Assembly (NCBI GenBank): GCA_013152755.1
Contig: JAADFR010000122.1
Coordinates: forward strand, 1 to 35,463
Origin: Alphaproteobacteria bacterium
GTDB taxonomy: Bacteria > Pseudomonadota > Alphaproteobacteria > Sphingomonadales > Emcibacteraceae
Reading direction: 5' to 3'
DNA: 35,463 nt
Shown: positions 13,115 through 28,234 of the stretch, piece by piece
Numbering within the stretch: position 1 is the stretch's first letter
How the letters are laid out: the number at the start of each line of letters is the position of its first letter
Program-made: the position numbers and the translations under genes
The notes under the pieces: model-generated
Told to the model about the DNA's origin: nothing
The model's database searches: none
Seen by the model: the letters and a program-made list of their open reading frames with translations, nothing else

Positions 13115-14320
13115 TCAGATATTTTTCTTTGGCCACCATTCCGCGGATTTCATCCTTTTGCGCTGAGATAATCTGTCATCCAGCCAAAGAGCGAATTTAC
13201 GAAACCTCCCCCCGGCAATTTTCTGCCATAGCCGATTATACCATACACTATAATCCCGGTTATAGGGACAAACCCTGATACAGATGGAACAATCCGTATT
13301 CTGATTAACCCAGAATTTAAAGCATTTCTCTGCATCCGTAGACCATTTCACCACGCCTTTCAGGTTAGAGCGGTTAAATATCTTATCTGAAGGACCCTCA
13401 AAGCTAATGGCCTTTGGCGGGCAGCCTTTGGCACAACGGTTGCAAATATCGCAAAATTCTTTCACGCCAAATTTTTTCGGCTTGTCATGGACCAGCGGCA
13501 TATCAGTAAAAATTTTACCAAGCCGCAGTCGCGCGCCAAATTCCGGCGTGATGAGCAGGCTGTGGCGCCCGCCCTCCCCCAACCCGGCCTGCACCGCCAG
13601 CGGTACTGCAAGGGCGCTGTCATTCATTGTGGCATAGGCCCTATAGCCTAGGTTGCGAATATATTGCGCCATGGTCAGTAATGTTACACAGTCATTGGTA
13701 TAGCCCATGCCCGTAGCGGACCCGGCCAACGCAGAAGGCACCGTGGCGGTCAGATCCTTATCCATGGATTCACCGGTCACAATGACATTGGGCAGATCAC
13801 CTGGAATATCCAAGGGCTTTGATTTGCCGCGCGTGTCATAGATACCATCATACATCCAACGCTCATCATAAGCACAGATACCAATCAGGTCCGCCCCGGC
13901 GAAAGCCGCCACTTTACGAATATCTTCCGTTGCCTGATGGTCAGATTGAAACGCATAAGGCTCCGGCGCGCCGTCATCATGAGAGGTAAAATGATCATGG
14001 AAACCTTCCTTGCGCCCATCCTTCTGTTCCCGGATCAGGTTACAGACATGCCAGGCCGCATTACGCAAGGCATAGTCACGCTGACTGAACCCATCCGCCT
14101 TTCGGGCCTTTGCCTTGGGCATATAATAGCCCTGATAAAAATCCTTGACCTTCTTGTTGGCAACCCCCTCATCCCACAGGGCGCGGCAGAAAACATCATC
14201 CCGCTGGCTGAATTTCTCAAATGTATCAAGAACCTCAATCCCGGTCAGCCGATCAATTTCACGGCGATAGTCGAAATAGTTAGGCCGCTTAGCCTGTTTT
14301 TCTGTTACGCTGTTGCTCAT
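13115..14320 (-). CDS. Reductive-dehalogenase-family (RdhA-like) cobalamin/Fe-S protein
   Basis: This 401-residue protein carries two [4Fe-4S] motifs: CDICNRCAKGCP (Cys290, 293, 296, 300) and Cys333 with CSICIRVCP (Cys344, 347, 351). The preceding GLGEGGRHSLLITPEFGAR and RLGKIFTDMPLVHDKP blocks are typical of RdhA proteins and related to the QueG fold, which use cobalamin. There is no Tat signal and no RdhB membrane-anchor gene beside it, unlike respiratory dehalogenases, so it is expected in the cytoplasm. Its substrate is unknown; a halogenated compound or other reductive reaction is possible. A divergent MarR gene and a shared palindrome suggest ligand-controlled expression. Confidence 0.85.
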   Translation of the reverse strand: MSNSVTEKQAKRPNYFDYRREIDRLTGIEVLDTFEKFSQRDDVFCRALWDEGVANKKVKDFYQGYYMPKAKARKADGFSQRDYALRNAAWHVCNLIREQKDGRKEGFHDHFTSHDDGAPEPYAFQSDHQATEDIRKVAAFAGADLIGICAYDERWMYDGIYDTRGKSKPLDIPGDLPNVIVTGESMDKDLTATVPSALAGSATGMGYTNDCVTLLTMAQYIRNLGYRAYATMNDSALAVPLAVQAGLGEGGRHSLLITPEFGARLRLGKIFTDMPLVHDKPKKFGVKEFCDICNRCAKGCPPKAISFEGPSDKIFNRSNLKGVVKWSTDAEKCFKFWVNQNTDCSICIRVCPYNRDYSVWYNRLWQKIAGGRFRKFALWLDDRLSQRKRMKSAEWWPKKNI

Positions 14321-16572: not shown

Positions 16573-18315
16573 ATGCTTGAACCTATTGCGACAAAAGATC
16601 CAACACTTCCACGCAGGCTTGCTGACTTTAGCACCCTTCTGGAAGCAATCGAATATGCCGCCAAAGGCACCCGGGGTTTAAATTTCTATTCCCCGCGCGG
16701 TGAGCTTGAAACAAGCATCACTTTTGCTGAAATCAAGGAGAAGGCCCAAGAGATTGGACGGCGTTTCATCCATTTCGGCATCGAAAAAGGCTCACGGGTT
16801 GCTTTGATCGCTGAAACAAGCGATGAATTTGTCTGTTATTTTATCGGTTGCCAATATGCGGGTTTGCTGCCGGTTCCCCTGCCCCTACCCACGTCTTTCG
16901 GCGGCCGAGAGGGATATACCAGTCAATTAAATCAACAGATGAAAAGTTGCGGCGCCTCGGTGGCCGTTTCGGCCTCCTATATGTTGCCTCTGTTGGACGA
17001 GGCCACATCCGGCCTGAAAAAAATGAAATTTGTCGGCACCTCCACCACATTTGAAGCACAAGCCTCACTCAAAGAAATAAAAAGCATCACGCTGCCCGAA
17101 GCGATTCCCGAAGATCTGGCTTATCTGCAATATTCATCCGGCAGCACCCGTTTTCCCCACGGCGTTGCAGTGACCCATAAGTCACTCATGGCCAACTGTG
17201 TTGGTATCGGCGGCGAAGGCATGATGCTTAATGATGATGACCGGGCCGTATCCTGGTTGCCTTTCTATCATGACATGGGGCTGGTTGGCACCTTGCTGTC
17301 GCCCATTGCCAATCAGGTGACCACTGATTATCTGGCGACCGAGGCCTTTGCCCGCAGGCCCCTGCAATGGTTGAGGCTGATCTCAAAAAACCGGGGTACG
17401 CTGGCCTATAGCCCGACCTTTGGTTATGACATCTGCACCCGCCGGGCGAGCCCGACCAAAATCGCCGATCTGGATTTATCCTCTTGGCGCGTGGCGGGCA
17501 TTGGCGGAGATATGATCAGAGCTGATGTGCTCACTAATTTCCTGGATACCTTTGCTGATGTCGGATTCAGGGCAACAACCTTTGTTCCCAGCTACGGTTT
17601 GGCGGAATGTACTTTGGCGGTAAGCTTTGCCCGTTTGGATACCGGTTTTGAAATTGATCTGGTCCATGAAAAAGTATTGTCCGGCGAAGAAAAATGCCTG
17701 AAAAAATTCAAGGTGAATGGCAGTGGTGCTAATTACCGCAGTGTGGTTAATTGCGGCATTCCCATTTCCGAATATGAGCTTGAAATCCGCGATGAGGATA
17801 ATAACGACCTCGGCGAATATCAAATTGGCCGGGTGTGCGTGCGGGGCGCTAGCGTCATGGCCGGGTATTTTCAAGATCCGGAAGCGACCAAAAGCTGCCT
17901 GTCAGAGGACGGATGGCTGGATACCGGTGACATAGGCTATATGAAAGAAGGCTCCCTTTATATCATTGGCCGGATTAAAGACCTTATTATCATTAATGGC
18001 AAGAACCACTGGCCGCAGGATATTGAATGGGCCGTTGAACAATTGGATGACCTGCGTTCAGGCGACACCGCCGCTGTATCTATTCCCGGTGATCAGGACG
18101 AAGAAATTCCGGCAATTCTGGTGCAATGCCGCACCCGTGACGAAGCTGAACGGGCCAAAATGGAACATAGAATCAAAGATACCGTCCATTCCATGCTGGG
18201 TATTTCCCCCGTGGTTGCCCTGATCCCGCCCCGGTCCCTGCCGCGTACATCATCTGGAAAATTAAGCCGGGTCAAGGCCAGAAAACAATATCTTGAAGGC
18301 AATCTGGTCCTGTAA
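16573..18315 (+). CDS. Fatty acyl-AMP ligase / acyl-ACP synthetase of ceramide pathway (AasR-like)
   Basis: This 580-residue adenylate-forming enzyme has the ATP loop YSSGSTRFPHG (187-197), the YGLAECTLAVS block, GWLDTGDIGYMKEGSLYIIGR with the hinge, and GKNHWP typical of fatty-acyl-AMP ligases. The conserved catalytic lysine near the C-terminus is Lys563 (SSGKLSR). It would activate a fatty acid and load it on an acyl carrier protein. In Caulobacter the equivalent enzyme charges the dedicated ACP used by serine palmitoyltransferase. Here it leads a same-strand run with the reductase, ACP and Spt genes. The ribosome site is weak. A role in another lipid path is possible, but neighbours favour ceramide. 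Confidence 0.88.
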   Translation: MLEPIATKDPTLPRRLADFSTLLEAIEYAAKGTRGLNFYSPRGELETSITFAEIKEKAQEIGRRFIHFGIEKGSRVALIAETSDEFVCYFIGCQYAGLLPVPLPLPTSFGGREGYTSQLNQQMKSCGASVAVSASYMLPLLDEATSGLKKMKFVGTSTTFEAQASLKEIKSITLPEAIPEDLAYLQYSSGSTRFPHGVAVTHKSLMANCVGIGGEGMMLNDDDRAVSWLPFYHDMGLVGTLLSPIANQVTTDYLATEAFARRPLQWLRLISKNRGTLAYSPTFGYDICTRRASPTKIADLDLSSWRVAGIGGDMIRADVLTNFLDTFADVGFRATTFVPSYGLAECTLAVSFARLDTGFEIDLVHEKVLSGEEKCLKKFKVNGSGANYRSVVNCGIPISEYELEIRDEDNNDLGEYQIGRVCVRGASVMAGYFQDPEATKSCLSEDGWLDTGDIGYMKEGSLYIIGRIKDLIIINGKNHWPQDIEWAVEQLDDLRSGDTAAVSIPGDQDEEIPAILVQCRTRDEAERAKMEHRIKDTVHSMLGISPVVALIPPRSLPRTSSGKLSRVKARKQYLEGNLVL

Positions 18316-18363: not shown

Positions 18364-19302
18364 ATGACAAAAAATGTAGCAGTCACCGGTGCCACCGGAT
18401 TTGTCGGTAAGCATCTGGTCCGAGCACTGGTTGCCAGCGGTTATCAGGTCAGGGCTTTGACCCGCCGCCCACAGAAAAACAGCAAAAATCTGATCTGGAT
18501 TGATGGTGACCTTGAAAACAGGGCAGCCCTTGAGCAGCTTGTCAGCGGCGTTGATGTGGTATTTCATCTGGCCGGCCTGATTAAAGCGAAGAAAACATCA
18601 GATTTTACCCGGGTGAACAGCCACAGCGTAAAAACGCTTGTGGAAATTCTACGGGAAGGCCCATCAAACCCCCACTTCATTCTTCTGTCGTCTCTGGCCG
18701 CGCGGGAACCACACTTATCAAGCTATGCCAACAGCAAGCGTCACGGCGAAGATATATTGACGGCGAATGCCGCGGACGACATGCCCTGGACGATCCTGCG
18801 CCCGCCCGGAATTTATGGGCCGGAGGATATGGAAACCCTCAAGATTTTCAAATCTATTGCGGCCCGGATGGCCCCTTTACCCGGCGGGGCCCATAACAGG
18901 GCATCATGGATTTACGCCCCCGATCTCGCCCAAGCCATGCTTGCCGTCGCCGGGCATAAAGAGTGTTACGGCCAGATACTGGACGTGGATGACGGGGCTG
19001 AAAACGGCTATTCAATAGATGAAATGTATCAGACCGCAGCCGATATTCTTCAAAATAAGCCTTTTAAATTTGCGGTGCCGAAAACAGCCCTGAAAATTTT
19101 TGGCCACACAAATGTCTTATTTTCGACATTATTCGGCTATACCCCCATGCTTACGCCAGAGAAAATCAACGAATTATGTCACCCGGACTGGGTATGTCAC
19201 GGGCCCCATGTTATGGATTTGACAGGCTGGAAACCGGAAACGAATTTGAAACAAGGGTTTAACAAAACCCTGAAATGGTATAAAGAGAATAGTCTGGTTT
19301 AA
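18364..19302 (+). CDS. NAD(P)-dependent epimerase/dehydratase family; probable ceramide reductase (CerR-like)
   Basis: This 312-residue protein of the extended short-chain dehydrogenase family has the Rossmann motif GATGFVG (Gly9, Gly12, Gly15) and the catalytic Tyr121-x3-Lys125 pair in SSYANSKRHGE. SSLAA before it gives the active-site serines, and LRPPGIYGPED is the usual substrate-loop motif. In Caulobacter a protein of this family in the same context reduces the 3-keto group during ceramide formation. Here it lies between the acyl-ACP synthetase and the ACP, 48 and 36 bases away, so the same job is likely. Generic sugar-epimerase activity is the alternative. Confidence 0.85.
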   Translation: MTKNVAVTGATGFVGKHLVRALVASGYQVRALTRRPQKNSKNLIWIDGDLENRAALEQLVSGVDVVFHLAGLIKAKKTSDFTRVNSHSVKTLVEILREGPSNPHFILLSSLAAREPHLSSYANSKRHGEDILTANAADDMPWTILRPPGIYGPEDMETLKIFKSIAARMAPLPGGAHNRASWIYAPDLAQAMLAVAGHKECYGQILDVDDGAENGYSIDEMYQTAADILQNKPFKFAVPKTALKIFGHTNVLFSTLFGYTPMLTPEKINELCHPDWVCHGPHVMDLTGWKPETNLKQGFNKTLKWYKENSLV

Positions 19303-19338: not shown

Positions 19339-19587
19339 ATGACCCAAAATGTTGATGAAATTTTTGAGCGAATTTGCACACTCCTCAAACCCTTTAACAA
19401 AAAAGACATTGCAATTGGTAAAGACACCGCCTTCAGCATTGATCTGGAACTAGATTCCCTGACCGTAATGGATATGTTATCGGAAATTGAGGATGAGTTT
19501 GACATTACAATCCCCCTGAACATGCTGCCCGACCTGGAGACAGTTGGCCAATTCACCGATGCCGTACATAAATTATTGAGCGAATAA
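19339..19587 (+). CDS. Dedicated acyl carrier protein for sphingolipid synthesis (AcpR-like)
   Basis: This 82-residue acidic four-helix protein has the phosphopantetheine site Ser40 in ELDSLTVMDM. Its helix-2 pattern resembles ACPs but differs from the housekeeping AcpP (DSL within FGADSLD), which suits a dedicated carrier. The TAA stop overlaps the ATG of spt by one base, which couples the two proteins. It would be charged by the upstream ligase and hand acyl groups to serine palmitoyltransferase. Confidence 0.92.
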   Translation: MTQNVDEIFERICTLLKPFNKKDIAIGKDTAFSIDLELDSLTVMDMLSEIEDEFDITIPLNMLPDLETVGQFTDAVHKLLSE

Positions 19588-20822
19588 TGACCCTTGATCT
19601 CTTTGAAAAATTTGACCCGATCCTGAATGACTATAACAGCCTGCCGGAAGGAGCGGAAAATCCCTTCACCGTCAGCATGGAGAAAGTACTCTCCCCTACA
19701 ACAGCGATCATTAATGGCCGGGAAACCATATTGGCTGGCACCAATAATTACATGGGCATGACCTTTAATGCGGAATGTATGGCAGCGGCGCAGAAAGCCC
19801 TCACAGACTTTGGCACCGGAACCACCGGCTCGCGGGTTCTGAACGGCACCTATAACAGTCACAAACAACTGGAAGAAACTCTCAAAGAATTTTATGACTG
19901 TCAACATGCCATCGTTTTCTCCACCGGCTATCAGGCAAACCTTGGCGTCATCTCCACCCTTGCCGGTCCCAAAGACTATGTGGTCATTGATACGGATAGC
20001 CATGCCAGTATTTATGACGGCTGTGCCATGGGCAATGCCACCGTTGTCCGTTTCAAACATAACGACCCGGATAATCTGGACAAGCGACTGAATCGTATCC
20101 GCAGAGATGACCCCGAAGCTGGCATTCTTGTGGTTCTGGAAGGGGTTTACAGCATGCTTGGCGATCAGGCCCCCTTGAAAGAGCTCACCAGAATTTCCAA
20201 AAATCATAATGCCTATGTCCTTGTGGACGAAGCCCATTCCATCGGCGTTTTTGGTGAAACCGGACGCGGCGTGGCACAGGAACAGGATGTTGAAGATCAG
20301 ATAGACTTTATCATCGGCACCTTCAGTAAAAGCGTTGGCACCATTGGGGGCTATTGCGTCTCCAACCATCCAAAGTTTGAGGCTTTGCGCCTCGTCTGCC
20401 GCCCCTATATATTCACAGCTTCCCTGCCACCATCTGTGGTGGCCTCAGCCACAAAGGCACTGGAACTGATTGCCAGCACGAACCTTCGTAGCAAATTGCT
20501 GGATAATTCCATGAGGCTGAACAAAGGCTTGTGTGATGTGGGATTTAATATGGGGACCACAGGGGAAAGCCCCATCGCCGCCATTGTTATTGATGATCAA
20601 AATACGGCCATCGCCTTTTGGGGTGAAATGATCAAGGAAGGGGTTTATGTTAACCTTGCTCTGCCGCCAGCGACCCCCAACAGAATGAATTTGATGCGTT
20701 GCAGCCTGTCCGCAGCCCACAGCTTTGCACAGATTGACTTTATGCTGGAAAAATTCACCCTCGTCGGTAAAAGACTGGGTATTTTACAGGATAAAGTAGC
20801 CAGAATTCAAAACCTAGCCTAA
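19587..20822 (+). CDS. spt: Serine palmitoyltransferase
   Basis: This 411-residue PLP enzyme of the alpha-oxoamine synthase family condenses serine with an acyl thioester to 3-ketosphinganine. PLP contacts are visible: His139 (DSHAS), Asp214 and His217 (VDEAHSIG), and the Schiff-base Lys248 in GTFSKSVGTIGGY. The GTFSKS form is typical of Spt rather than of AONS or 2-amino-3-ketobutyrate ligase. The overlapping ACP gene suggests acyl-ACP as donor. Its last 9 bases overlap the convergent kinase-like gene. I am confident of the family and fairly sure of the Spt activity. Confidence 0.9.
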   Translation: MTLDLFEKFDPILNDYNSLPEGAENPFTVSMEKVLSPTTAIINGRETILAGTNNYMGMTFNAECMAAAQKALTDFGTGTTGSRVLNGTYNSHKQLEETLKEFYDCQHAIVFSTGYQANLGVISTLAGPKDYVVIDTDSHASIYDGCAMGNATVVRFKHNDPDNLDKRLNRIRRDDPEAGILVVLEGVYSMLGDQAPLKELTRISKNHNAYVLVDEAHSIGVFGETGRGVAQEQDVEDQIDFIIGTFSKSVGTIGGYCVSNHPKFEALRLVCRPYIFTASLPPSVVASATKALELIASTNLRSKLLDNSMRLNKGLCDVGFNMGTTGESPIAAIVIDDQNTAIAFWGEMIKEGVYVNLALPPATPNRMNLMRCSLSAAHSFAQIDFMLEKFTLVGKRLGILQDKVARIQNLA

Positions 20823-21782
20823 CTGGATAAATTTCAGGCTATCAGTAACCGTAACGAATAATTCACCGTTGTCATCAGCCTGATAATAACTGCCATCAAG
20901 GACAAACGGGGTTTTCAGCACAATTCGGGCGTGTTGAATTTCGGCAATGATATTGCCCGCATGGTCAATACCGTCATAATTACCCCTGAGCATAAGCTTG
21001 CCGGTTTCCAGAATGGCCTTTGGCGTATTCTCAACACTGATAAAATGCGCCCTGTCCTGTCTTTTTTCCTGCCCGATGGAAACGCCCCAGAAGGCCTTGT
21101 CCAACGTGGAGATCAACAGCATAAAATAGCTGCCGACAACGGCGCCGCGCTGATTACGGTTGACACGTATGGCATCTTCCAGCCTTTGCTTGCCCATGGC
21201 CCGCCGATAAGCCGCCTGAACAAGTCTGATAATGCTCAACCAGTTACGAAAACGGGAGAAGAGCCCTCTGGCGGATATTTTCCGCTTGAACAGGCTTTTC
21301 TTCTTGATAATTTTACCCGCACAAAAGAAAAGCCCATATAGATAACCAATGCCCCGAACCCCCTCCAGCTTAAGCAGAGGACATTCGGTTATCGTGTTCA
21401 GTAATCTTCCCTGCCGGTGAAATTTAAGCAAATCTTCCAATGCCTTATGTGGCTCAGATCGGTTTGCCCCGAAATTTTCCGCGACAATATTATTGTCCCC
21501 GGCAGGCAGAATGGCCAGCGGAATATCCTTACTTTTCAGCAAGTCCTTTTCCAGTATATGTTCAAAGGTTGCCGAGGTTAACGCCCGGTCCCCCAAAATG
21601 GCGATGACATCCACATCAACCTGACTGAACCGGCCTAACGCTTCGGCAATATCCTTGTGCTTTTCCACCTCATAATGGAAAATCCCGGTCCCCTCGGAAA
21701 TGACCGCCCGGATTTTATCCATTTCACCATTCTCTGTGAAAGAGGACGGGCTACTCAATATGGCAATTATTCCCAATGACAA
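20814..21782 (-). CDS. Diacylglycerol/sphingosine-kinase-like protein with degraded GGDGT loop
   Basis: This 322-residue protein has the layout of the DAGK catalytic-domain family. Residues 1-105 form an NAD-kinase-like alpha/beta domain with PAGDNNIVAENFG (93-105) in place of PxGTxNxxA. A beta-rich C-terminal domain has FVLDGSYY near the end, where DGE is usual. The nucleotide loop, normally GGDGT, reads AILGDRALTSATF at 61-73, with two of three glycines gone. A basic segment (160-185, KKKSLFKRKISARG) may bind membrane. The start is TTG at 21782 (or TTG 21776) behind GGGAAG. In Caulobacter a kinase of this fold phosphorylates ceramide; this may be a related lipid enzyme or a non-catalytic relative. 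Confidence 0.75.
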   Translation of the reverse strand: MSLGIIAILSSPSSFTENGEMDKIRAVISEGTGIFHYEVEKHKDIAEALGRFSQVDVDVIAILGDRALTSATFEHILEKDLLKSKDIPLAILPAGDNNIVAENFGANRSEPHKALEDLLKFHRQGRLLNTITECPLLKLEGVRGIGYLYGLFFCAGKIIKKKSLFKRKISARGLFSRFRNWLSIIRLVQAAYRRAMGKQRLEDAIRVNRNQRGAVVGSYFMLLISTLDKAFWGVSIGQEKRQDRAHFISVENTPKAILETGKLMLRGNYDGIDHAGNIIAEIQHARIVLKTPFVLDGSYYQADDNGELFVTVTDSLKFIQLG

Positions 21783-21941: not shown

Positions 21942-23117
21942 ATGCTGAAAAAAATTGATAAATATATATTGCGCGAGACCATAGTGCCCCTTCTGGTCAC
22001 TTTGGGCATATCCGCATTGCTGTTGCTACTGGAAAAAATGCTCAGTCTTTTCGATTTTGTCATCAATCAGGGCGGGCCTATCGACATCGTCTGGCGCATG
22101 CTGGGCAACCTGATGCCGCAATATCTGACCCTCGTCCTGCCCCTGTCCATGTTTCTGGGCGTTTTGCTCGCGGTGCGCAAGATGGCCCTGAATAGCGAAC
22201 TGGATGCCATGATGGCGGCCGGGATCAGCCTGAACCGAATTATCGTGCCCAGCCTCTATGTGGCGGTCTTTTTGCTGATCGTCAATGTGATCGTTGTCGG
22301 CTTTGTTCAGCCCTATAGCCGCTATACCTATCAAGGGCTAGTCTTTGACATTCGCAGCGGTGCACTGGGGGCCAGCATCAAAGCCGGGGAATTTACCGAC
22401 CTTGGCGATGGCCTGACCCTGCGCATCGAAGAATCCCGCAATTCAGGCCGGGAACTGATCCAGATTTTTGCCCAGAAGGAACAACAGGATGGCCGCATCC
22501 AGTCCATCAATGCGGAAAGGGGCAGCTTTTTTGTCTCTCCCGACAAGCGTTATCTGATCCTGCGCCTTGAAAACGGCACCTTAATTGACCTTGATCTGTC
22601 CCGAAGTCGGCCCAATATTGTCAATTTTGATATTCATGACCTGCCCATAGATGTACCCAACTTTGCCACCTTCCGCGACCGGGGCGAAGAAGCCAAGGAA
22701 ATGACCATCGTGGAACTGTGGGATAAGCGGGGCAGTAATGACCCGGCGATCATTGCCACCCTCCATTCAAGGACGGCGCGCGCCCTGTCCATTCTGATTG
22801 TTCCCTTTCTGGCCATACCGCTTGGGCTGGTGGCCAAACGATCCGGGCGGGCGCTGGGTATTACGGTGGGGATCGTGATTCTGCTCATCTATCACAAGAT
22901 TCTGGAATTCGGCCTTAATTTTTCAGCCACGGGCGACATATCCCCCTTAATGGCCATCTGGCTACCCACGGCAATTTTTGTTTTACTGACCGCCAGATTC
23001 TATTATATCGGAACCTATAAGGTCGGCGGAATGCCACTCAGGAAAATTGAAATCATCTATGACATTACGGTCAGCGCCATCACCCGCATGGTCAGCCGGT
23101 TAAGGGCGGCCAACTGA
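21942..23117 (+). CDS. LptF/LptG family permease (first of pair, LptF-like)
   Basis: This 391-residue inner-membrane protein has three N-terminal and three C-terminal transmembrane segments around a periplasmic beta-jellyroll domain (about 125-270). Family motifs include KKIDKYILRETIVPLL, KMALNSELDAMMAAGIS (coupling helix contacting the ATPase) and FLAIPLGLVAKRSGR. LptF/LptG form the membrane part of the ABC exporter that pulls lipid from the inner membrane towards the outer membrane with LptB. Here the pair is followed by a ceramide-synthase-like gene, not by lptD, surA and pdxA as is common, so sphingolipid export is an alternative cargo. It is divergent from the kinase-like gene. Confidence 0.9.
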   Translation: MLKKIDKYILRETIVPLLVTLGISALLLLLEKMLSLFDFVINQGGPIDIVWRMLGNLMPQYLTLVLPLSMFLGVLLAVRKMALNSELDAMMAAGISLNRIIVPSLYVAVFLLIVNVIVVGFVQPYSRYTYQGLVFDIRSGALGASIKAGEFTDLGDGLTLRIEESRNSGRELIQIFAQKEQQDGRIQSINAERGSFFVSPDKRYLILRLENGTLIDLDLSRSRPNIVNFDIHDLPIDVPNFATFRDRGEEAKEMTIVELWDKRGSNDPAIIATLHSRTARALSILIVPFLAIPLGLVAKRSGRALGITVGIVILLIYHKILEFGLNFSATGDISPLMAIWLPTAIFVLLTARFYYIGTYKVGGMPLRKIEIIYDITVSAITRMVSRLRAAN

Positions 23118-23118
23118 T

Positions 23119-24246
23119 ATGGAAAGATTCATTAAATTTTCCAACCATTTGGGTGGTCTTTTTAACCCGGGAAGCATGGATATATATCTGGCCAAGCTTT
23201 TTGCCAGCCGCTATATCGTCATTCTGATCGGCTTGGTGGCGACCCTGCAAATGCTGGACCTCTTGTCTGAATCCGATGACATTATGGCCGGTGAAGGGGC
23301 GGTATATTCTGACCTATGGCATTATGTGACCCTGCGTACGCCGACCCTGTTATCGTTATTCTCGCCCTTTGTTGCCCTGTTGGCCTCGATCATGTGTCTG
23401 GCTGGCTTGAATGTTCATAGCGAAATTGTCATCATGAAATCTGCCGGATGGTCCGCCTTTCGCATTATTACGCCCATGATCCTCATGTCTCTGCTCATTG
23501 CCTCTCTGCATTTCGTATTCACCGAAACGGTCACCATCAGCGCCAAGGCAGAACTTAGAAACTGGAAAGAAAACAAATACGCCGCCGACCTGCCGCCCGC
23601 GCCGGACACGGTCTATGACACATGGGTTAATGACGGCAATAACCTGATCAAGGCGGAAAGCGCCAGCCGCAATGGCAGCATCCTGCTTCTGGACAAGGTG
23701 ACACAGTATATCAGGGACAAGGACAAACGTATTACCTCCCTGATCAAGGCCGACTTTGCCGTTTACCGGGACGGCAAATGGACCCTGTTCGAGGTTAAGG
23801 ACTTTAACCTGCGCACCCTGAAAGTGACGCCGATGGAAAATCTGGTCTGGGATACGGATATTCCGCCCCAGCGTTTCATCGCGCTGGCCCTGAAACCGGA
23901 TCAGGTCAGCCTGCAACGACTGCGCACCGCCATAGCCCAACTGGGCAAAGAAGGCCATAATACCGCGAGCTTTGAAACCATGCTCTATCAGAAATTTGTC
24001 TCACCTCTCAGCACCCTGCTGATGCCGCTTCTGGCGGGGCTGGCGGCCTTTGGGTTGCATCGGGGCGGCAATTTATTTGGCCGTATCGCGCTCACCGGAG
24101 CCATGGGATTTGGCTATTTTGTCATTAACAATCTTTTCGTCGCGTTGGGCCAATATGGCGCGGTGCCACCAATCGTGGCTGCATGGTTACCATTTTTGCT
24201 GTTTTTCCTCATCGGCGTAAGCTTCATCCTGCTCACAGAAGAATAA
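23119..24246 (+). CDS. LptF/LptG family permease (second of pair, LptG-like)
   Basis: This 375-residue partner has the same six-helix plus jellyroll design. MDIYLAKLFASRYIVILIGL begins the first helix, GLNVHSEIVIMKSAGWSAFRI is the coupling-helix region, and LMPLLAGLAAFGLHRGG and GAMGFGYFVINNLF lie in the last helices. It starts one base after the lptF-like stop. A start at Met20 (23176) is also possible, since many LptG proteins begin there. Its stop lies 23 bases before the GNAT gene, which suggests one transcript lptF-lptG-GNAT. No lptA, lptB, lptC or lptD is in the window. Confidence 0.9.
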   Translation: MERFIKFSNHLGGLFNPGSMDIYLAKLFASRYIVILIGLVATLQMLDLLSESDDIMAGEGAVYSDLWHYVTLRTPTLLSLFSPFVALLASIMCLAGLNVHSEIVIMKSAGWSAFRIITPMILMSLLIASLHFVFTETVTISAKAELRNWKENKYAADLPPAPDTVYDTWVNDGNNLIKAESASRNGSILLLDKVTQYIRDKDKRITSLIKADFAVYRDGKWTLFEVKDFNLRTLKVTPMENLVWDTDIPPQRFIALALKPDQVSLQRLRTAIAQLGKEGHNTASFETMLYQKFVSPLSTLLMPLLAGLAAFGLHRGGNLFGRIALTGAMGFGYFVINNLFVALGQYGAVPPIVAAWLPFLLFFLIGVSFILLTEE

Positions 24247-24269: not shown

Positions 24270-25415
24270 ATGACATCAGCCATCACCATCAAAGAGGTGA
24301 CCGACAAAGCAGGTTTCAAAGCCTTTGTTACCCTGCCTTGGGCCTTATATAAGGATGACCCAAACTGGGTGCCCCCCATCATCATGGAGCGGCTGGAAGT
24401 ACTGGATAAGGACAAGAATCCTTACTTCGAGCATGCCCGCGCCAAATTCTGGCTGGCCTACAAGGGAAATGAGGTCGTTGGTCGCATATCAGCCCAGATT
24501 GATGACCTTGTAGAACAACAGCATAACGAAAAAATCGGCCATTTCGGTTTTTTTGAATGTACCAATGACCCTGCGGCGGCGGCGGCCCTGATGGATACCG
24601 CTTGCGCGTGGCTGAAATCAGAAGGACGCACCAGCGTAATCGGACCGTTCAGCCTGTCCATCAATGAAGAAGCCGGTATGCTGGTGGAGGGATTTGACAC
24701 CCCGCCCAGCCTGATGATGAACCATGCCCTGCCCTATTATCAGGATTTGATGACCGGATACGGCATGGAAAAGATCAAGGATTTATGGGCCTATTACCTG
24801 AAATTTAACCAGCCCGTCCTGCCGCCCACCATTGACAAACTGGTCAAGCGCAGCATGCGCGACGGCAAGGTCCGTCTGCGGCGGATAAATATGAAAAATT
24901 ATACCAGAGACCTGAGAATTATCCTCGATATTTTCAATGATGCCTGGACCGATAACTGGATGGCCCTGCCTTTTACCGAAGCCGAATTGAACAAGGCGGT
25001 CAAGGATATGAAACTCCTGATCAGGGAGGATTTTACCTATATCGCCGAATATGACGGTGTGCCCATGGCCATGATGGTCACCCTGCCCAACCTCAATGAA
25101 ATCATTGCTGATCTTGACGGGCATTTGTTTCCTTTTGGTATATTTAAACTACTCTGGCGGCTTAAATTAAATCCCCGCTATAAAACCGTTCGGGTGCCTC
25201 TGATGGGGGTGCGCAAGGAATTTCAGAATACCGCTCTTGGCGGTGCCATGGCCTTTGCCCTGATTGAGGAATGCCGGATTCAGGCGGAAAAGGCCGGCTG
25301 TACCCATGCCGAGCTATCATGGGTTCTGGAAGAAAACACCCGCCTGTCAAAAATGCTGGAAACCATTGGTTGCTGGCGATATAAAAATTACCGTATGTAT
25401 AGCAAAACACTGTAA
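24270..25415 (+). CDS. GNAT-type N-acyltransferase, probable bacterial ceramide synthase (bCerS-like)
   Basis: This 381-residue soluble protein contains an acyltransferase domain related to GNAT. Visible blocks are FWLAYKGNEVVGRISAQIDD, IGPFSLSINEEAGMLVEGFD and, in the second half, KTVRVPLMGVRKEFQNTALGGAMAFALIEECRIQAEKAG followed by AELSWVLEENTRLSKMLETIG. The start ATG 24270 follows AAGGGAC; upstream in-frame sequence overlaps lptG. In Caulobacter a protein of this class N-acylates the sphingoid base and is not homologous to eukaryotic ceramide synthase. The position next to spt, cerR and acp genes makes the same activity likely here. Another amine acceptor cannot be excluded. Confidence 0.82.
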   Translation: MTSAITIKEVTDKAGFKAFVTLPWALYKDDPNWVPPIIMERLEVLDKDKNPYFEHARAKFWLAYKGNEVVGRISAQIDDLVEQQHNEKIGHFGFFECTNDPAAAAALMDTACAWLKSEGRTSVIGPFSLSINEEAGMLVEGFDTPPSLMMNHALPYYQDLMTGYGMEKIKDLWAYYLKFNQPVLPPTIDKLVKRSMRDGKVRLRRINMKNYTRDLRIILDIFNDAWTDNWMALPFTEAELNKAVKDMKLLIREDFTYIAEYDGVPMAMMVTLPNLNEIIADLDGHLFPFGIFKLLWRLKLNPRYKTVRVPLMGVRKEFQNTALGGAMAFALIEECRIQAEKAGCTHAELSWVLEENTRLSKMLETIGCWRYKNYRMYSKTL

Positions 25416-25486: not shown

Positions 25487-26155
25487 ATGCCTGATACACC
25501 ACCTAGCAAGCCGCAAAAAAGTTTTCTGCAACGGTTGAGAACCTACTTTCTGACCGGGCTTGTCGTGGCCTCCCCTGTGGGCATTACCATTTATCTGGCA
25601 CTGGCCTTCATTAACCTTATTGACCGCAATGTGAAGCCTCTTATTCCGGCGACCTACAATCCGGAGACATATCTGCCTTTCCCCCTGCCGGGTATCGGGC
25701 TGGTTTTCTTGTTTCTAATGCTAACTGTTCTGGGCTTTTTCGCCGCCAATTTTTTGGGCCGGACCCTGATCAGGATTGGCGAGAAAATACTCAACCGCAT
25801 GCCCGTGGTGCGTAGTGTTTACAACACCCTGAAACAGATTTTCGAAACTGTAATTTCGGAAAACAAGGGCAGTTTTCAGGAGGTGGTTTTAATCGAATAT
25901 CCGCGTAAAGGTCTGTGGGCCATCGCCTTTATTTCCGGCGAAAATAAAGGCGAAATACAGCGCAAAATGGCCGATGATGTGGTCAATGTCTTTCTGCCCA
26001 CAACGCCAAACCCCACGTCCGGATTTCTGTTGTTTGTACCCAGAAAAGATATTATCCGGCTCGATATGACCCCGGACGAGGGCGCAAAATATGTCATCTC
26101 CGCCGGCCTTGTCGACCCTGGCAATATGCCGGTTAAGGAAGAGCCCTCATCCTGA
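25487..26155 (+). CDS. DUF502 family membrane protein
   Basis: This 222-residue protein has two hydrophobic segments (about residues 16-40 and 60-85) and then a soluble domain. Typical family wording is YFLTGLVVASPVGITIYLA, NRMPVVRSVYNTLKQI and PTTPNPTSGFLLFVP. No function is established for DUF502. The gene sits tail to tail with recG, overlapping its end by 9 bases, a neighbourhood (DUF502, recG, sdhE, mfd) I recognise from other alphaproteobacteria. The start ATG 25487 follows an A/T-rich leader. Confidence 0.9.
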   Translation: MPDTPPSKPQKSFLQRLRTYFLTGLVVASPVGITIYLALAFINLIDRNVKPLIPATYNPETYLPFPLPGIGLVFLFLMLTVLGFFAANFLGRTLIRIGEKILNRMPVVRSVYNTLKQIFETVISENKGSFQEVVLIEYPRKGLWAIAFISGENKGEIQRKMADDVVNVFLPTTPNPTSGFLLFVPRKDIIRLDMTPDEGAKYVISAGLVDPGNMPVKEEPSS

Positions 26156-28234
26156 GGTCAGATATTTAACCCCTTCGTCCCGCTCAAACAGATAGAGCAA
26201 AATCCTGAGTGCCTTCCCGCGCGCGCTTTTTAATTCCGGGTCTTTTTCAAGGATCAGGCGGGCATCATCCCGCGCCATGGGAATGAGCTTGCCGTGATCC
26301 TCAAGGCTTGCCGCCTTAAAATCCGGCATACCGCTTTGCCGGGTGCCCAGCAATTCTCCGGCGCCGCGCAGGCGCAAATCCTCCTCGGCAATCAGAAAGC
26401 CATCATCACTTTCCCGCATAATCTTAAGCCGCGCCTTTGCCGCCCCCTGTCCCAAAGCACCGTACAGCAACAGGCATGTGGATTTTTCAGGCCCGCGCCC
26501 GACACGGCCCCTAAGCTGATGCAATTGAGACAGGCCAAATCTTTCCGCATGTTCGATAATCATAATCGTGGCTTCCGGTACATCAACCCCCACCTCCACC
26601 ACCGTGGTCGCCACCAGAATATCAATGTCCCCCCGCACGAACAGGTCCATGACCGCATCTTTATCCTTTGGTTTCATCTTGCCATGCACCAGCCCAACTC
26701 TATCGCCGAAAATATGTTCCAGATGGCGGAATCTCTCCTCAGCAGCGGCCAGGTCAAGGACTTCAGATTCTTCCACCAATGGACATATCCAGAAGGCTCG
26801 GGTGCCGGACTTTATGGCCCGCCTAATACCCTGCACCACCTCGTCAAGGCGGCTTAAGGGAATGGTTCTTGTATCCACCGGCTGTCGCCCCGGCGGCTTT
26901 TCATAGAGCTGAGACACATCCATATCGCCGTAAGCCGTCAGGGTCAGGGTGCGCGGAATGGGGGTTGCGGTCATGGCCAGAACATCCATCGCCCCCTGTC
27001 CCTTGGCCGACAGGGCCAGCCGTTGTTCAACCCCGAACCGATGCTGTTCATCAATCACCACAAAGGCCAGATCATCATAGATCACATCTTTTTGAAACAA
27101 AGCATGGGTGCCCACCAGAATATCAATCTCCCCGGCCTCTAACGCCGTCAGGAGCTTCTGCCGCGCCTTGCCCTTGTCCCGCCCGGTGAGGATGGCGATG
27201 GTGACGTCCATGCCCTCTGTCATCTGACTCAGGCTGGTATAATGCTGACGGGCAAGAATTTCAGTGGGCGCGATCATGGCCGCCTGAGCGCCGCTTTCCA
27301 CCGCCACCAGCATGGCCAGCAGGGCCACCACCGTCTTGCCACTGCCCACATCCCCCTGAAGCAATCGCATCATGGCATAGGGCTGGGCCAGATCCTGTTC
27401 AATGGCCTGCAAACTCTCCCCCTGCGCCCCGGTCAGGTCGTAGGGCAGGTTATCCAGAAGCTGTTTTTTCAAATGGCCTTTGGCTATCAGGGCGCGTCCT
27501 TTTTTGCGGCGATTCTGCAACCGCATGATTTCCAGCGCCAATTGATTGGCCAGAAACTCATCATAAGCCACCCGCATACGGGCCGGGCTTTCGGGCAACA
27601 GATCAGCGGTACTCGCCGGATTATGAATTTGCGTCATGGCGTCAAACCATGTGGGCCAGCCCTCACGCGTCATCAGGGATTTATCCTGCCATTCGGGCAA
27701 CTCAACCAGCCTTTCAATGGCACCGCGCACGATTTTAGCCATGACCTTGCCGCTGATACCAGCCGTCAGGGGATAGACCGGCTCCACCGCCGGAATTTCA
27801 TTCTGCTGATCCGGGGACAGCATATAATCCGGGTGGCTCATTTGCAGCGCGCCGTTATAGACCTCTACCTTGCCGCTGATCAGACGATCTTCGCCCTCCG
27901 GCAGCTGCCGCCTGATATAATCACCGCGTGCGTGAAAAAAGATCAGTTGAAGCTTACCCGTATCATCATGGCACCATACCCGATAAGGCCGCTTGCTGCC
28001 CTTTGGCGGAATGTCGTGGCTGCCGATGGTCACTTTTACCGTGACAATCTGGTCATATTTAATATCGGTGAGCGCTGGACAGGACCGGCGATCAATAATA
28101 TCCACCGGAAAATGCCAGAAAAGATCCAGAACCTTGCGCCCGACGATTTTTTCCAACAGGCTCGCAATACGGCCCCCCACACCGGGCAGGCTGATGGTAT
28201 CGGCAAAAAAAGGATATAATATTTCCGGGCGCAT
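26147..28234 (-). CDS. recG: ATP-dependent DNA helicase RecG
   Basis: This 695-residue helicase remodels stalled forks and branched DNA. It has an N-terminal wedge/OB region (about 1-260, including YDQIVTVKVTIGSHD), Walker A GDVGSGKTVVA near residue 294, and the DExH motif VIDEQHRFGVEQR near 393. Motif TATPIPRTL follows, then the C-terminal helicase half with QLRGRVGRGPEKS and the RecG tail DLRLRGAGELLGTRQSG. Length is normal. It is divergent from sdhE with a 74-base gap and convergent with DUF502. Confidence 0.97.
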   Translation of the reverse strand: MRPEILYPFFADTISLPGVGGRIASLLEKIVGRKVLDLFWHFPVDIIDRRSCPALTDIKYDQIVTVKVTIGSHDIPPKGSKRPYRVWCHDDTGKLQLIFFHARGDYIRRQLPEGEDRLISGKVEVYNGALQMSHPDYMLSPDQQNEIPAVEPVYPLTAGISGKVMAKIVRGAIERLVELPEWQDKSLMTREGWPTWFDAMTQIHNPASTADLLPESPARMRVAYDEFLANQLALEIMRLQNRRKKGRALIAKGHLKKQLLDNLPYDLTGAQGESLQAIEQDLAQPYAMMRLLQGDVGSGKTVVALLAMLVAVESGAQAAMIAPTEILARQHYTSLSQMTEGMDVTIAILTGRDKGKARQKLLTALEAGEIDILVGTHALFQKDVIYDDLAFVVIDEQHRFGVEQRLALSAKGQGAMDVLAMTATPIPRTLTLTAYGDMDVSQLYEKPPGRQPVDTRTIPLSRLDEVVQGIRRAIKSGTRAFWICPLVEESEVLDLAAAEERFRHLEHIFGDRVGLVHGKMKPKDKDAVMDLFVRGDIDILVATTVVEVGVDVPEATIMIIEHAERFGLSQLHQLRGRVGRGPEKSTCLLLYGALGQGAAKARLKIMRESDDGFLIAEEDLRLRGAGELLGTRQSGMPDFKAASLEDHGKLIPMARDDARLILEKDPELKSARGKALRILLYLFERDEGVKYLTSG

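Follow-up and report, generated by a model that had tools for sequence, protein, structure and literature searches.

The closest described counterpart of the gene pair studied here is found in Caulobacter crescentus, where CC_1156 and CC_1155 were named LptF2 and LptG2 and were proposed, without a test, to transport phosphosphingolipids (PMC11324152, 2024). Mutants in CC_1156 have fitness profiles in common with phosphosphingolipid genes, and the route by which bacterial sphingolipids reach the outer membrane was called unknown in the same work (PMC11324152). The other point of reference is the LPS exporter LptB2FG of E. coli and Shigella. In the LPS-bound Shigella structure, LptG contacts the 4′-phosphate through K40, the glucosamines through D37 and the inner core through K41, while LptF R292 and LptG R301 extend to the nucleotide (PMC6744409).

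We analysed a stretch of 35,463 nucleotides (the window) from an Emcibacteraceae-like organism, which GTDB places in the order Sphingomonadales. Its nearest named genomes are the hydrothermal-vent Sphingomonadales MAG HyVt-439 (SPT 98%) and Emcibacter sp. (84%). The original prediction placed an LptF/LptG pair within a sphingolipid locus, preceded by a lipid-kinase-like gene and followed by a ceramide-synthase-like gene. This was borne out (Table 1). Both proteins have matches among LptF/LptG chains of solved structure (6s8g and 6mhu, for instance), and these sequence matches settle the assignment to the LptF/LptG fold. The gene after the pair is a GNAT-type cerS. The kinase label is a fair one for the gene before the pair, which lies on the opposite strand, but its Pfam match is weak; in other families of the order, relatives with 25-65% identity occupy the equivalent position. 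The aasR-cerR-acpR-spt run stands upstream of lptFG. The genes lptF, lptG and cerS are co-directional, with gaps of 1 base between lptF and lptG and 23 bases between lptG and cerS, and are probably transcribed together. Judged from the sequence, a start of cerS at 24270 is likely, rather than the ATG at 24183 that overlaps lptG.

Table 1. Sphingolipid locus of the window: features, positions, strands and the evidence for each assignment.
Feature	Position	Strand	Evidence
aasR-like fatty acyl-AMP/ACP ligase	16573..18315	+	NF006624, 807 bits (cut-off 600)
cerR-like NAD-dependent reductase	18364..19302	+	PF01370; synteny with the Caulobacter order (PMC11324152)
acpR-like acyl carrier protein, 81 aa	19339..19584	+	open frame with ...ELDSLTVMD... 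motif; conserved at other loci
spt, serine palmitoyltransferase	19587..20822	+	NF047599, 616 bits (cut-off 500)
DAGK-like protein, possible ceramide kinase	20814..21782	-	PF00781, 20.5 bits (under the cut-off of 23.6)
lptF (LptF2-type permease), 391 aa	21942..23117	+	TIGR04407, 263.8 bits (cut-off 230); PF03739; ceramide-locus clade
lptG (LptG2-type permease), 375 aa	23119..24246	+	TIGR04408, 275.8 bits (cut-off 240); outside canonical LptG clade; residues
cerS, GNAT-type bacterial ceramide synthase	24270..25415	+	PF00583; position; relatives found at ceramide loci in other families
DUF502 membrane protein	25487..26155	+	PF04367; co-directional after cerS; conserved neighbour in L069-L073

Two further observations concern the surroundings of the locus. 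In several families of the order, the DUF502 gene and recG (25487-28234) are conserved neighbours of cerS. On the minus strand, at 13115-14320, the window encodes a reductive-dehalogenase-like protein (TIGR02486, 173 bits; cut-off 160), which is unexpected for such an organism.

The layout of ceramide genes around lptFG recurs in six of the seven families sampled within the order and in several others beyond it. Related loci of other families contain a DAGK-type kinase and a fatty acid hydroxylase; some also have a Wzx-like flippase adjoining lptG. In several families of the order, lptG is directly followed by an ORF of about 510-520 aa (L079, 11813-13381, with counterparts in L073, L075, L076 and L083), and the L079 copy encodes a Wzx-like (PF13440) protein, a possible sphingolipid flippase. 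Since a search of the window organism's own genome gave no match to it, this flippase was dismissed as a fixed part of the locus, although it occurs in other families of the order. Linkage of lptFG to spt is not universal either. Among 51 named loci with full flanks, the pair lies within 10 kb of spt in 16 and farther away in 35, many of the latter in Erythrobacter-type genomes; the Caulobacter study likewise noted such unlinked pairs in two species (PMC11324152).

The separation of lptFG and spt, which affects many Sphingomonadaceae, would suit an explanation in which the cargo of the pair is a different surface glycolipid, such as a lipid-linked polysaccharide or a capsule anchor, and the ceramide genes adjoin the pair through shared regulation or chance, the more so as the sphingolipid substrate is something we infer. 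This explanation appears improbable to us, given that the linkage recurs across families within and beyond the order, that a ceramide-type pair coexists with an LPS pair in two spt-bearing, LpxC-positive genomes (G163 and G164, see below), and that the Caulobacter pair of the same type shares the fitness profiles of sphingolipid genes (PMC11324152).

The window pair is the only one in its genome assembly, a 2.9 Mb draft of 191 contigs and 95.5% completeness; a search for a further PF03739 pair, including one next to lptD as the original prediction had suggested, gave none, and lptD stands without lptFG. Of the 148 genomes of the order, 145 retain LptF/LptG, in most cases as a single pair. Against this rule, four or five LptF/LptG-family matches were counted in G003, G050, G056, G071 and G084.

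Neither LpxC nor LpxB was found in the window organism's genome. The draft state of this assembly, together with the fact that both permeases pass the LptF/LptG equivalog cut-offs, would allow for an ordinary LPS exporter that had moved beside the ceramide genes, with the lpx genes merely missing from the draft. An assembly gap is ruled out, however, as LpxC is missing from all 148 genomes of the order, many of them complete; LpxB is absent from all 19 order genomes tested. Class-wide, LpxC is present in 50 of 61 genomes. The pair moreover falls outside the canonical clade, and residues that contact lipid A are altered, as described below. The explanation as an ordinary LPS exporter is thus strongly contradicted, and we regard it as very improbable.

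In the same genome, LptB, LptA, LptC and LptD are kept, and the lptC-lptA-lptB-rpoN run is intact. LptC is encoded once; no LptC2 was found in this genome. Likewise, all 19 order genomes tested for LptD retain it. The Lpt bridge thus outlives its usual cargo.

Several genomes deviate from these patterns. G188 and G191 are LpxC-negative and lack spt, yet they contain a canonical pair and LpxB and may for this reason make LPS after all. G187, an LpxC-negative genome with ceramide genes, has a weak LpxB-like match (105 bits; G187:C16:40168-41214). G203 (L133, L111) combines LpxC and spt/ceramide genes with a canonical LptF/LptG pair only. A full ceramide operon is present in G194, a complete alphaproteobacterial genome of 5.4 Mb (L132; G194:C1:1499800-1519700), in which no LptF/LptG, LptD, LpxC or LpxB was found. 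Ceramide genes can hence occur without Lpt, and a need of sphingolipids for Lpt is not general.

Most of the LPS-making alphaproteobacteria sampled have lptF and lptG between pepA and lptD, and pepA and lptF-lptG are also adjacent in E. coli. The original prediction correctly noted that lptD-surA-pdxA are absent beside the window pair; these genes are located on another contig, in the arrangement holC-pepA | lptD-surA-pdxA-ksgA. The organism thereby resembles the canonical alphaproteobacterial locus pepA | lptF-lptG-lptD-surA-pdxA-ksgA in having lptD, surA, pdxA and ksgA, but differs from it in that lptF and lptG are gone from the site, as they are in the order. The pepA and lptD reading frames are 144 bases apart. 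Of 20 further LPS-less genomes, 18 show the same junction without lptFG, their matched parts of pepA and lptD being separated by 189-462 bases; in G200 and G204, the two exceptions, lptD is located elsewhere.

Two kinds of LptF/LptG pair can be told apart. Canonical LptF proteins are about 21-28% identical to the window LptF and are mostly encoded at the pepA-lptD site, whereas LptF proteins of the other kind are about 29-87% identical to it and are mostly tied to ceramide genes. The LptF tree separates 38 canonical rows from 39 that are ceramide-type or LPS-less, with an SH-aLRT support of 99 for the split. In the LptG tree, the canonical clade has a support of 100 and the ceramide-type branch one of 43. 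For both proteins, AU tests reject trees that nest the pairs of the order within the canonical clade (p-AU 8.5e-45 for LptF and 8.6e-8 for LptG). The original prediction had named as evidence against it a pair that was both the only one in the genome and clustered with canonical LPS exporters. The pair is indeed the only one, but in the trees and AU tests it does not cluster with them; it falls outside the alphaproteobacterial LPS-exporter clade and, in the best trees, together with other ceramide-locus pairs. Pair type is also associated with the presence of LpxC. Among the genomes whose pair type was checked, to which the Fisher test is confined, LpxC is missing from 7 of 7 with the ceramide type only, and the canonical type is present in 36 of 36 with LpxC (p 7.9e-7).

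G163 and G164, which are positive for LpxC and spt, each encode both types of pair. Their second pairs have the ceramide-locus layout seen in the order and share most of its LptG residue changes, and in the best trees the order's pairs group with such second pairs of LpxC-positive genomes (support 99 for LptF and 43 for LptG). These genomes bear on the origin of the window pair. With the canonical site empty and a pair present in the ceramide locus, the canonical lptFG could have moved from pepA-lptD to the ceramide genes and diverged after the loss of LPS, then serving sphingolipid export. In line with this, AU tests of trees with the pairs of the order adjacent to the canonical clade were not significant (p-AU 0.125 for LptF and 0.34 for LptG). 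The coexistence of both types in G163 and G164, the grouping of their second pairs with those of the order and the shared layout and residues argue against such a move, which we consider unlikely. Takeover by an old paralogue is likelier than relocation, but it is not proven because of the low support of the ceramide-type LptG branch and the p-AU values of the alternative.

The LptG residues that contact lipid A or the LPS core in Shigella differ between the two kinds of pair. Canonical alphaproteobacterial LptG proteins have E or D at position 37 (34 of 36), R at 40 (32 of 36) and R or K at 41 (33 of 36). Ceramide-type LptG proteins mostly have A or S at 37 and D or E at both 40 and 41. In the window LptG, S50, D53 and D54 correspond to positions 37, 40 and 41 of E. 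coli LptG, so that the charge is lost or inverted. LptG K34 proved useless as a marker of specificity, with D found there in both alphaproteobacterial clades. Both kinds of pair retain the coupling arginines; R300 and R315 of the window proteins stand for LptF R292 and LptG R301. The engine is preserved and the lipid A contacts are gone, which is consistent with a change of substrate without indicating what the new one is. Part of the clade-specific residue change is expected from divergence alone.

Taken together, we think it likely that the two permeases make up the membrane-spanning half of an ABC exporter of the Lpt type that carries a sphingolipid, i.e. a ceramide-based glyco- or phospholipid, and not LPS. 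The original prediction had allowed for a sphingolipid instead of, or as well as, LPS. The former is supported and the latter not favoured, because the only pair falls outside the canonical clade and LpxC and LpxB are missing from the genome and from the order where tested. An LptB2FG of the ceramide type would take the ceramide-based lipid made by the locus from the inner membrane, and transport would be directed outwards: the β-jellyroll domains of LptF and LptG would pass the lipid to LptC and then to LptA, and LptD, encoded elsewhere, would place it in the outer leaflet of the outer membrane. LptB, LptC, LptA and LptD would thus be used in common with the machinery known from LPS export. 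As for the sequence of events, LPS synthesis and the canonical lptFG were probably lost order-wide, while an LptF2/LptG2-type paralogue and the rest of the bridge stayed. Somewhat more probable than not, in our estimation, is the wider proposal that the whole Lpt machine from LptB2FG to LptD was given over to sphingolipid across the LPS-less order and several outside families, the ceramide-locus paralogue replacing the canonical permease, with lipid A headgroup contacts rebuilt and ATP coupling kept.

The existence of the LptF2/LptG2 kind of pair and its proposed role were already known from Caulobacter (PMC11324152). New here are the order-wide LPS-less state with the pair as sole copy, the deletion scar at pepA-lptD and the residue signature; no precedent was found in the literature covered, subscription papers and preprints being outside its scope. 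The window locus shares with Caulobacter the order aasR-cerR-acpR-spt ... lptF-lptG-cerS (PMC11324152). Caulobacter has in addition LPS, a canonical pair and LptC2, whereas the window organism has a lone pair and one LptC and lacks the LPS genes tested. In this comparison the Caulobacter pair was represented by its published description, with the G163 and G164 sequences as stand-ins. With LptB2FG of E. coli and Shigella (6mhu, 6s8g; PMC6744409), the window pair has in common the protein families, the order of the two genes and the coupling arginines. It differs in that D37, K40 and K41 of LptG are replaced by S, D and D, in that it is not located beside pepA, and in that no lipid A genes were found in its genome. 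A lineage that lacks LPS but has one ceramide-linked LptFG and a kept Lpt bridge makes the question of sphingolipid export testable without confusing LPS traffic. If the proposal is true, Lpt, which has been taken as specific for LPS, can switch its substrate by the exchange of the permease pair alone.
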